From: Arthrobacter ipis
Lineage (GTDB): Bacteria; Actinomycetota; Actinomycetes; Actinomycetales; Micrococcaceae
Length of the DNA stretch: 64,000 nt
Assembly (NCBI RefSeq): GCF_014694315.1
Contig: NZ_JAAOXD010000001.1
Location: 565,059-629,058 of the forward strand
Direction of reading: 5' to 3'
The notes beneath the pieces were generated by a model. That model saw nothing but the letters and a program-made list of their open reading frames with translations. It did no database searches and was not told the DNA's origin. Below are positions 37,837-40,650 of this stretch, piece after piece; the stretch's first letter is position 1, and every line of letters starts with the position of its first letter. Made by a program: the position numbers and the translations under genes.

Positions 37837-37933
37837 TCTCCCTGAAACGTCACCGAAGTGTTCGTTCACGTAGGCCTGGCTCGTTGGTGTCCGAGGCTGG
37901 GTGTGCCGGGAGGGGATGGGGGTAGGGGTGCGC

Positions 37934-37939
37934 TAAAGT
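37934..37939 (+). promoter_or_regulatory. -10 element for the leuS leader
   Basis: TAAAGT ends 6 nt before the ATG of the leader peptide at 37946, the spacing expected when transcription starts on the ATG itself. The -35 region is not recognisable. Confidence 0.5.
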
Positions 37940-37945
37940 AGGTGT

Positions 37946-37972
37946 ATGCGTGCGATCCTTCTGCTTAGCTAG
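37946..37972 (+). CDS. leuS leader peptide MRAILLLS
   Basis: Eight-codon ORF reading MRAILLLS and ending in TAG at 37970. Three consecutive leucine codons (CTT CTG CTT) follow an Ile codon, the content expected of a leucine-sensing leader for leucyl-tRNA synthetase. The ORF probably starts a leaderless transcript, given TAAAGT 6 nt upstream. Downstream lie a 7-bp stem (CCGCTTG 37973-37979 with CGAGCGG 38004-38010) and a terminator hairpin. Ribosome stalling on the Leu codons would be expected to change that folding and let leuS be transcribed. The peptide itself need have no function. Confidence 0.7.
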
Positions 37973-38013
37973 CCGCTTGGTATCCCGAACAAATACGGAT
38001 TATCGAGCGGCCG

Positions 38014-38036
38014 CCCCTCCATGTCGAGGGGCTTTT
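38014..38036 (+). terminator. leuS attenuator terminator
   Basis: CCCCTC (38014-38019) pairs with GAGGGG (38026-38031) around a 6-nt loop, followed by CTTTT. It lies between the leader ORF and leuS. An upstream stem at 37973-38010, containing ATCC/GGAT as inner pairing, ends only 3 nt before it. Its fold could be changed by ribosome position on the leader peptide. Confidence 0.7.
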
Positions 38037-38100
38037 GTGTGTCCGGGGAGACCTTCCCGGCGGGCGGCGGGGATCAGACCGTTATGACAGGACAGAGGTC

Positions 38101-40650
38101 ATGACAGAACAGAAGAGGGCAGCAGTGAGCGTTCAGCCGGAGACCGAAACCGGAACAGCAGCAGGTGGAGCCGAGACGCCCGAAGAGGGCGCGTACAGCT
38201 TCGCGGCAATGGAGGCCCGGTGGCCGCAGGTGTGGGAAGACCTGAAGGTCTTCACCCCCGCCGACGACGGTTCCCGGGAGCGCCGCTACGTCCTGGACAT
38301 GTTCCCCTACCCGTCCGGCGACCTTCACATGGGCCACGCCGAAGCGTTCGCCATGGGTGACGTGGTGGCTCGCTACCTGCGCCAGCAGGGATACGACGTG
38401 CTGCACCCGATCGGCTGGGACTCCTTCGGGCTCCCCGCGGAAAACGCGGCCATCAAGCGCAACGCCCACCCGAGCGAGTGGACCTACGCCAACATCGACA
38501 CCCAGGCCGCCTCCTTCAAGCGTTACGCCATCTCCGCAGACTGGTCGCGCCGGCTGCACACTTCCGACCCGGAGTACTACCGCTGGACGCAGTGGCTGTT
38601 CAAGCGCTTCTACGAACGGGGCCTCGCTTACCGCAAGGACTCACCGGTCAACTGGTGCCCCAAGGACCTGACCGTGCTGGCCAACGAGCAGGTTGTCAAC
38701 GGCGCCTGCGAACGCTGCGGCACGGCCGTGACCAAGAAGTCGCTGAACCAGTGGTACTTCAAGATCACCGACTACGCCGACCGCTTGCTGGAGGACATGA
38801 CCGAGCTGCAGGGGCATTGGCCCGAGCGGGTACTGGCGATGCAGCGAAACTGGATCGGCCGCTCGGAAGGCGCCCATGTCCGGTTCGTGATCGAGGCATC
38901 TGACGGACGTGCCGAGCGCGAAGTCACAGTCTTCACCACCCGTCCGGACACCTTGCACGGGGCCACGTTCTTCGTGGTGGCCGCGGACGCGCACCTGGCC
39001 CTGGACCTGGTTACGCCTGAACACCACGACGCACTCATGGCCTACCGTGAAAAGGTCAAGGCCCTTTCGGACATCGAACGCCAGTCCACCGAGCGTGAAA
39101 AGACCGGTGTGTTCACCGGCCGCTACGCCATCAATCCCCTTAACGGTGAGAAGCTGCCCGTCTGGGCAGCGGACTACGTCCTGGCCGACTACGGCACGGG
39201 CGCCATCATGGCCGTCCCGGCGCACGACCAGCGTGACCTCGACTTCGCCAAGGAGTTCGGCCTGCCTGTGCGCGCGGTGCTGGACACCGGTGAGGAGGAT
39301 CCCGCCGTCTCGGGTAAGGCAACAGCGGGCGAGGGCACACTGATCAACTCTGGTGCGCTCGACGGCCTTCCCAAAGCAGAGGCCATTCCGGCGGCCATCG
39401 AAATCCTGGGCAAGCAGGGCACGGGGGAGAAGTTCGTGAACTTCCGGCTGCGTGACTGGCTCCTGAGCCGCCAGCGCTTCTGGGGCACCCCGATCCCGAT
39501 CATTCACTGTGCCGAGTGCGGCGAAGTACCGGTACCCGACGAACAACTGCCGGTGACGCTGCCCGAGGACCTGCGGGGTGAGGCGCTGTCCCCGAGGGGC
39601 ACTTCGCCCCTGGCCGCAGCCGCCGAATGGGTCAACGTCGAGTGCCCGAACTGCGGACGTGCCGCCCAGCGGGACACGGACACCATGGACACCTTCGTGG
39701 ACTCGTCCTGGTACTTCCTGCGTTTCGTCTCCCCGCAGTACACAGAGGGTCCGTTCGATCCGGAAAAGATCAACGAATGGATGCCGGTGGGACAGTACGT
39801 GGGTGGCGTGGAGCACGCGATCCTGCACCTGCTGTACGCCCGCTTCTTTACCAAAGTCATTCACGACATGGGCCTGTTGGCGGCGGATGAGCCCTTCAGC
39901 GCCCTGCTCAACCAGGGGCAGGTCCTGAACGGCGGCAAGGCCATGAGCAAGTCGCTGGGCAACGGCGTGGACCTGGGCGAGCAGCTGGACAAGTACGGCG
40001 TCGACGCCGTCCGGCTCACCATGATCTTCGCTTCCCCACCCGAGGACGACGTCGACTGGGCGGACGTTTCGCCGTCGGGCTCCGCCAAGTTCCTGGCCCG
40101 CGCCTGGCGCCTCGGCCAGGACGTCTCAAGCGCCCCGGGGGTTGACTTCAGCACCGGTGACCGCGCGCTGCGCTCGGTCACGCACAGGACCATCGCCGAC
40201 GCTGCGGAGCTGCTGGACAACAACAAGTTCAACGTCGTGGTGGCCAAGCTGATGGAGCTGGTCAACGCCACCCGCAAGACCATCGACTCCGGTGCCGGCG
40301 GCGCGGATCCGGCCGTGCGTGAAGCTGCCGAGGCAGTGGCCGTCATCCTCAGCCTCTTTGCGCCCTACACGGCGGAAGACCTGTGGAACGTCCTGGGGCA
40401 CCCGGCGTCGGTGGCCAACGCGGGTTGGCCTTCGCATGACGAGTCCCTTCTGGTGCAGGAGACCATCACCGCGGTGGTTCAGGTCCAGGGCAAGGTCAGG
40501 GACCGGCTCGAGGTTTCACCGGCCATCTCCGAGGACGAGCTGCGCGAGCTTGCGCTGGCCTCCGAGAATGTCCAGCGCGCCCTCGACGGCCGGGGCATCC
40601 GGACCGTGATCGTGCGGGCACCTAAACTGGTGAACATCGTCCCGGCCTAG
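38101..40650 (+). CDS. leuS: Leucine--tRNA ligase
   Basis: Class Ia synthetase that charges tRNA-Leu. The 849-aa product starts at ATG 38101 ([10 protein letters not shown]) behind AGAGG; the frame to 38035 would begin in the terminator. Catalytic motifs are [15 protein letters not shown] (HIGH-type, about residues 69-83) and AMSKSLGNG (KMSKS-type, about 613). The CP1 editing domain contains [12 protein letters not shown] near 279. Zinc-binding Cys are seen in [22 protein letters not shown]. It has a roughly 40-aa extra N-terminal polar segment. Likely regulated by the leader-peptide attenuator upstream, and followed by a 9-bp hairpin. Confidence 0.97.

Follow-up and report, generated by a model that had tools for sequence, protein, structure and literature searches.

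A conserved leucine leader upstream of leuS in Arthrobacter ipis, a probable ribosome-mediated transcription attenuator

The leucyl-tRNA synthetase gene leuS of A. ipis is preceded by a short leader rich in Leu codons that is real and conserved beyond what chance would produce. As judged from sequence and predicted structure, this leader is very probably a ribosome-mediated transcription attenuator that couples leuS to the supply of charged tRNA-Leu, in which the first of two hairpins, referred to here as P1, would serve as the antiterminator of the leucine-starved state.

Architecture and conservation of the leuS leader

All elements of the leader lie on the forward strand of the window, the 64-kb stretch of DNA that was analysed. 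A -10 box, TAAAGT (37934-37939), stands 6 nt upstream of the start codon of an eight-codon, presumably leaderless ORF encoding MRAILLLS (37946-37972; ATG CGT GCG ATC CTT CTG CTT AGC TAG). This arrangement, including the three consecutive Leu codons, had been pointed out in the initial annotation and can be read directly in the sequence. The three putative control codons, CTT CTG CTT (Leu5-Leu7, 37958-37966), are assigned on the basis of conservation, geometry and codon usage, and the last of them, the CTT at 37964-37966, ends 5 nt before P1. Folding and covariation place the 5' arm of P1 at 37972-37982, its first base being the last base of the stop codon, and the 3' arm, the proposed antiterminator of the leucine-starved state, at 38001-38011. 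In the fold of the window leader P1 thus comprises 11 bp, G-U pairs included, together with an inner 3-bp stem, rather than the 7 bp originally described. A single nucleotide (38012) separates P1 from the stem of an intrinsic terminator, likewise defined by folding and covariation, whose 5' arm GCCCCTC (38013-38019) pairs across a CATGTC loop with the 3' arm GAGGGGC (38026-38032); the U-run TTTT brings the element to its end at 38036. The GC hairpin with its T-run noted earlier is therefore in place ahead of leuS (38125-40650), the identity of which is given by TIGR00396 (E 7.4e-289). The gene likely starts at the GTG at 38125, judging from an SD-like GAGGG upstream.

Neither the fold nor the arrangement of this leader is common in comparable sequence. 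The segment 37946-38036 folds at -41.4 kcal/mol, against a shuffle mean of -26.1 kcal/mol (z -4.75), and 1 of 200 shuffles folded as well. The pattern of a TANNNT box, six nucleotides and a short ORF starting with ATG or GTG and containing three Leu residues in a row occurs once on the two strands of the 64-kb window, at 37946, and is absent from all 40 dinucleotide-shuffled versions of it.

The leader is widespread among relatives. Of the 198 genomes examined from the genus, A. ipis itself included, 195 contain a DNA match to 37928-38040. For the family we sampled 149 genomes and fetched the DNA upstream of leuS for 102; the leader was found at 79 of these loci, representing 20 of 31 genera, and the remaining 23 were without such a leader. 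Altogether 179 of 248 examined stretches carry it, a total that includes near-duplicates as well as 29 loci from the genus picked by similarity to the leader itself; many of the loci are closely related, and these counts do not represent independent events.

Conservation of the Leu codons among relatives, on which the initial annotation had made its reading depend, is clear from the 170 distinct leaders. At the last control position, which ends about 5 nt ahead of P1, Leu is found in 145 of 164 cases; the codon before it is Leu in 139 of 164 and the third, counting upstream, in 131 of 158, while the codon upstream of all three is Leu in just 5 of 157. The run of Leu residues is thus kept as the other residues vary, for example in MHNFLLLT, MIAVLLLS, METTLLLR and MFAQLLLT; the last Leu varies slightly less than the other two, with LQL, LVL, LPL, LEL, QLL, ALL and ELL occurring as variants. 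This retention lends support to the earlier proposal that leucine-charged tRNA may be sensed by ribosome stalling. CTT is the last leader Leu codon in 45 of 52 named loci and accounts for 3.4% of the 2784 Leu codons in the leuS coding sequences of the same species; a rare codon at the last Leu position would sharpen sensing.

The element has been lost or altered in some lineages, as is evident from the 23 family loci that are without the leader and from two deviating kinds. At three loci of a single genus (L126, L129 and L133) the leader reads MAYFLG*, with one Leu codon and P1 missing, and the terminator stem begins approximately where P1 normally does. Glutamicibacter-type leaders also have one Leu codon, mostly CTA; at L060, L061, L177, L182, L189, L200 and L207 it is CTA, followed by a short P1 that lies 8-9 nt past it.

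Two loci call for separate comment. An apparent Trp leader, MQTWG, before leuS at L234 resulted from the choice of the wrong ORF, and the genus count is unaffected; by eye, the actual leader is MHFLLLLS, with TATAGT 7 nt before its ATG. A record titled Sporosarcina beigongshangi (L050) contains the leader and a leuS resembling that of Arthrobacter (89% identical across the query), and is probably a mislabelled assembly.

Abutting hairpins and the leaderless start

The spacing of the two hairpins relative to the Leu codons was examined in 163 of the 170 distinct leaders by folding only the stretch bounded by the last Leu codon and the terminator, seven being set aside because they lack a Leu codon or offer too short a stretch. 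The distance from the last Leu codon to P1 is exactly 5 nt in 126 of the 163 leaders and 4-6 nt in 143; shuffled segments give 12.9%. P1 and the terminator are separated by 0-3 nt in 162 of 163 leaders versus 58.5% of shuffles, and the mean segment energy is -21.4 kcal/mol versus -11.3 kcal/mol in shuffles. The minimum-energy fold contains P1 and the terminator together in 160 of the 163 leaders, with no pairs shared between them, and a base-paired, mutually exclusive antiterminator was not found in these folds of the Leu-to-terminator segment, a point that the initial annotation does not make.

In the A. ipis leader the stop codon overlaps the start of P1, and leaders in which this is not the case help to identify what fixes the position of the hairpin. 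The stop codon has been lost in L048, L123, L132 and L137 (MSALELSQPR), where the ORF continues through P1, and in most leaders of the Streptosporangiaceae, Actinomadura and Streptomyces types the ORF likewise runs through the 5' arm of P1, with the stop downstream. In most leaders whose stop is lost or downstream, the distance from Leu to P1 is still 5 or 6 nt, exceptions including L098 (8 nt), L249 (3 nt), and L092 and L154, for which a Leu codon further along had been counted as the last. P1 is therefore positioned relative to the Leu codon rather than the stop. In leaders that stop with TAA (L051, L192 and L193), P1 opens with an A-U pair instead of G-C. Pairing of the Leu codons with the 3' arm of P1 was also considered; it is seen at five loci (L034, L035, L041, L046 and L120), is not general and was taken as incidental.

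Covariation among leuS leaders had been named as a check on the initial reading, and both hairpins do covary. In a plain MAFFT alignment of 37 diverse leaders, hand-picked from the first 70 of 89 listed, 95.8% of cells are paired and 11 of 15 pairs show two-sided changes. None of five covariation measures was reached by any of 500 shuffles, and sliding the partner by 1-3 columns, as a control, reduced pairing to 40-58%. RNAalifold, given no structure, returned the same two helices, P1 and the terminator.

Evidence on the start of the leader comes in part from a search that knew nothing of promoters or Leu codons. This finder, which looks for abutting hairpins near leuS only, yielded 144 distinct tandems from 219 stretches; 92 of the tandems have a Leu codon 5 nt before P1 and 52 do not. 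Among 87 leaders from this promoter-blind set with the Leu codon and an in-frame start, the distance from a TANNNT box to the start is 6 nt in 64 and 7 nt in 15, and all other distances from 2 to 25 nt together account for 9 boxes. Our other leader finder demanded a -10 at 6 or 7 nt, which makes its own spacing counts circular. SD-like cores precede the leader start in 5 of 137 leaders, in a set chosen by its -10. In addition, the LeuL2 leader of S. lividans TK24 (MRAVRLLLSEPR) is reported to be transcribed leaderless and to be followed by a hairpin and a U stretch (PMC8079986). Because of the spacing between -10 and start, the rarity of SD cores and this leaderless counterpart, transcription likely starts at or near 37946, that is, at the leader ATG, so that the earlier suggestion of a leaderless leader gains support.

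Proposed mechanism and competing explanations

These features lead us to a model in which the ribosome on the leader decides the fate of the transcript. If the leader ATG is the transcript start, a ribosome would load directly on the transcript end. When leucyl-tRNA is ample, it would clear the three Leu codons, reach the stop codon and enter P1; with P1 blocked by the ribosome, the terminator would fold and transcription would stop ahead of leuS. When leucyl-tRNA is short, the ribosome would wait at a Leu codon, positioned just before P1 even on the last one, and P1, whose first pair lies 5 nt past that codon, could fold. P1, standing against the base of the terminator (1 nt away in A. ipis), would then hinder its closure in the RNA polymerase exit channel and permit readthrough into leuS.

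The elements themselves, their conservation, their geometry and the covariation of both hairpins are observed; the leaderless start, the polarity of the switch and the action of P1 by abutment are the parts of this model that we infer. The polarity is suggested by the leaders in which the ORF runs through the 5' arm of P1: there, translation past the Leu codons would melt P1 and stalling would spare it, so that P1 would belong to the starved state. Since a synthetase gene should rise on starvation, a structure of the starved state should act as an antiterminator. Given the footprint of a ribosome, having the last Leu codon in the A site would bring the mRNA entry roughly to where P1 begins; P1 could therefore remain folded with a ribosome paused at any of the three Leu codons and would be melted once it advances. 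With the last of these codons in the A site, a paused ribosome may already be in contact with the bases at the start of P1. For the step by which P1 would prevent termination, abutment without classical mutually exclusive pairing is our candidate; exclusion at the polymerase exit channel is proposed because the two helices share no pairs and coexist in folds, and it would explain the near-constant gap of 0-3 nt.

The same leader and the same sensing of leucine could also operate with P1 favouring termination, as an anti-antiterminator or pause hairpin that a ribosome stalled on the Leu codons disrupts, the 3' arm of P1 then forming a weak antiterminator with the 5' arm of the terminator. We regard this as unlikely, even though P1 and the terminator do coexist in folds and the base of P1 might be masked by a ribosome stalled with its A site on the last Leu codon. 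The C. glutamicum ilvBNC model does include an antiantiterminator hairpin (PMC11857589); none was seen in the fold of the window leader. What weighs against this polarity are the leaders whose ORF extends through the 5' arm of P1, in which ordinary translation in rich medium would melt P1 and so give the wrong response; moreover, the hairpin between the 3' arm of P1 and the terminator arm is short and, from an uncounted inspection of the leader sequences by eye, not kept. Far less probable is a constitutive arrangement, in which a small ORF and a terminator fix a basal level of leuS and the Leu codons serve translation speed without any sensing. Some lineages do keep the terminator with few Leu codons, as this would allow, but three tandem Leu codons retained among varying flanks, at a near-constant distance from P1, speak against it, and the occurrence of Ile codons before cimA and ilvA and of Ile, Leu and Val codons before ilvB (see below) fits sensing of the pathway's own amino acid.

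Regulation by a T-box, or by another leader that binds tRNA or a metabolite, deserves mention since aminoacyl-tRNA synthetase genes of Gram-positive bacteria often use T-boxes, as described for the Firmicutes (PMC1262725). We consider it hardly credible here: the leader is about 90 nt long with two plain hairpins, and Rfam gave no match at gathering score, to T-boxes or otherwise, anywhere in the 64-kb window. With permissive filters, the sole match up to E 1 within 37900-38130 was to an unrelated sRNA family (E 0.2, far below gathering score), leaving no T-box model among the matches; the absence of a T-box from the initial annotation accordingly holds for the window. Across 11 leader loci the only match at gathering score was one tRNA, and 20 of the 23 family leuS stretches in which no leader was recognised (L223, L224 and L227 being the other three) gave none at that score.

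Relation to known attenuators and occurrence at other genes

Attenuators of leuS consisting of a leader ORF, an antiterminator and a terminator have been predicted for S. avermitilis and S. coelicolor (Seliverstov et al. 2005, PMC1262725), cases that the initial annotation does not mention. Going by sequence and structure, the A. ipis leader is a member of this published Streptomyces/LeuL2 kind. Common to both are a Leu-rich short ORF, a hairpin and a terminator with a U-run before leuS, and a relationship in sequence and structure is provided by R1, a covariance model built from 37 leuS leaders, none of them from the family designated f25. In f25 genomes R1 gives matches with E values from 1.3e-6 to 2.9e-12. 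The f25 leaders found with it include some whose peptide is identical to the published LeuL2, MRAVRLLLSEPR (L263, L279 and L281), as is that of L249; because this peptide occurs there, we take f25 to be the Streptomyces family. The two differ in that the ORF of the Streptomyces type runs through P1, whereas MRAILLLS* stops right at it, and in the host, here a member of the Micrococcaceae. For the Streptomyces leaders, the text compared mentions neither the almost constant 5-nt spacing seen here nor the absence of pairs common to P1 and the terminator.

It is well established for the trp, his and leu attenuators of E. coli that the position of the ribosome on control codons decides termination. 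The leuS leader would follow the same principle, but unlike these systems it has no SD on the leader ORF and no base-sharing antiterminator was found; antiterminator and terminator structures that share bases, as in the classical trp type, are not what is observed, the two helices coexisting in 160 of 163 leaders. The LEU element of leuA is described as a pseudoknot that base pairs Leu codons with the leuA Shine-Dalgarno (PMC1262725); the present leader differs in that its gene is leuS and a covarying terminator is present.

Further parallels are the ilvBNC attenuators of C. glutamicum, C. ulcerans (the ilvB-II motif) and M. tuberculosis, which likewise have a branched-chain uORF and an intrinsic terminator, the antiterminator forming on ribosome stalling (PMC11857589, PMC10272879, PMC13236596). 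The C. glutamicum leader is described as nearly leaderless, with CUU as a control codon and an overlap of 3 nt only between antiterminator and terminator, and mutations in its terminator stem raise expression 7-8 fold (PMC11857589). In an M. tuberculosis ilvB1 reporter, replacement of LVVI by Ala codons abolishes induction (PMC13236596). Both results favour the general scheme for related leaders, without bearing on the abutment step; the ilvBNC attenuators serve another gene with other codons, whereas the leuS leader has a gap of 0-3 nt and no overlap in pairs.

Beyond the family, R1 matches 138 of 296 class genomes at E <= 0.001, the gene downstream (leuS or another branched-chain gene) having been checked for part of these matches only. 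Its distribution in the other families of the same order is patchy, with a match in 4 and no match in 20 of the genomes listed. Of 119 genomes sampled from the phylum, 12 have an R1 match; 6 of these lie outside the class, and in two of the six it stands in front of leuS (L335 and L336). A further R1 match, L337, has Leu and Ile codons and tandem hairpins, and by eye a later frame there resembles prephenate dehydratase.

In the A. ipis genome itself, R1 finds two places at E <= 1, the leuS leader (E 1.1e-12) and one before ilvB (E 1.4e-5; 1501-1590 of L252, or G000:C1:262483-262572). The ilvB leader encodes MIFVTVGTVVVLTKRVAP*, with a CTT 5 nt before P1 and P1 2 nt from the terminator. Twenty further R1 places in other genomes, hand-picked mostly from weaker matches, precede the citramalate synthase gene cimA (8), ilvB (6), ilvA (4) and leuS (2) as assigned by eye, the ilvA locus L288 by its leader alone. 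NCBIfam agreed for cimA in 3, ilvA in 2 and ilvB in 2 of the 20, as well as for the A. ipis ilvB; all of these cut proteins scored below the NCBIfam curated cut-offs except the A. ipis ilvB, which matched TIGR00118.

The control codons at these genes change with the gene. All 8 cimA leaders end their control codons in ATT (e.g. MQRTAIIIP*), and the 4 ilvA leaders (L288, L290, L292 and L297) have a single Ile codon, ATT, in MAIT* with the same P1-terminator layout, the gene downstream of L290 and L297 being threonine ammonia-lyase by NCBIfam. Among the 6 ilvB leaders, five contain ILVL or ILVV, and another ilvB leader, L344, encodes MRTRILVLGKRVG, the IlvL peptide of S. lividans as published (PMC8079986). 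The control codon in covariance-model matches is partly biased, the models themselves containing that codon. The cimA leaders with Ile codons ending in ATT (L282, L283, L285, L289, L293, L298, L299, L301 and some of L304-L333) often start with GTG, and several seem to have CANNNT in place of TANNNT as their -10, from an uncounted inspection by eye. Leaders of cimA and ilvA were not found in the literature searched; Lopatovskaya et al. 2010 (Mol Biol 44:128) may list more actinobacterial leuS, ilv and cimA attenuators.

A second model, R2, was built from 14 such leaders; with a cut-off of E <= 1e-4 it has matches in 175 of 246 genomes of the class. We then have, from R1 and R2 together, 61 checked loci: the two of A. 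ipis, the 29 further best R1 matches and the 30 best R2 matches, some of which are R2 training places. By tblastn, 60 of the 61 precede leuS (29), cimA (20) or ilvB (11), and one is unplaced. Downstream of the 29 leuS leaders the enzyme is of two strongly different kinds, with 15 and 14 loci respectively, the diverged kind with the same Leu leader being found at L255-L259, L261-L263, L265, L266, L276, L277, L279 and L281. Leader and enzyme type are therefore not tied to each other.

These observations lend themselves, tentatively and with some doubt on our part, to the idea that the leuS leader exemplifies a portable attenuator cassette of the Actinomycetota whose codons are exchanged according to the gene and whose P1 would prevent termination by abutment, unlike a switch with a shared strand. 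If this is true, the cassette would consist of a leaderless mini-ORF, a last control codon that is mostly rare and U-ending, 5 nt, P1, 0-3 nt and the terminator, with Leu codons used before leuS of both kinds, Ile codons before cimA and ilvA, and Ile, Leu and Val codons before ilvB. The leaders described here extend a regulator predicted in two Streptomyces species to leuS of 20 of 31 sampled Micrococcaceae genera and of several other families. Their precise layout offers a way to test how termination can be prevented by a hairpin that has no bases in common with the terminator, and the exchange of codons among leuS, cimA, ilvA and ilvB would make the cassette a natural set of amino-acid sensors.
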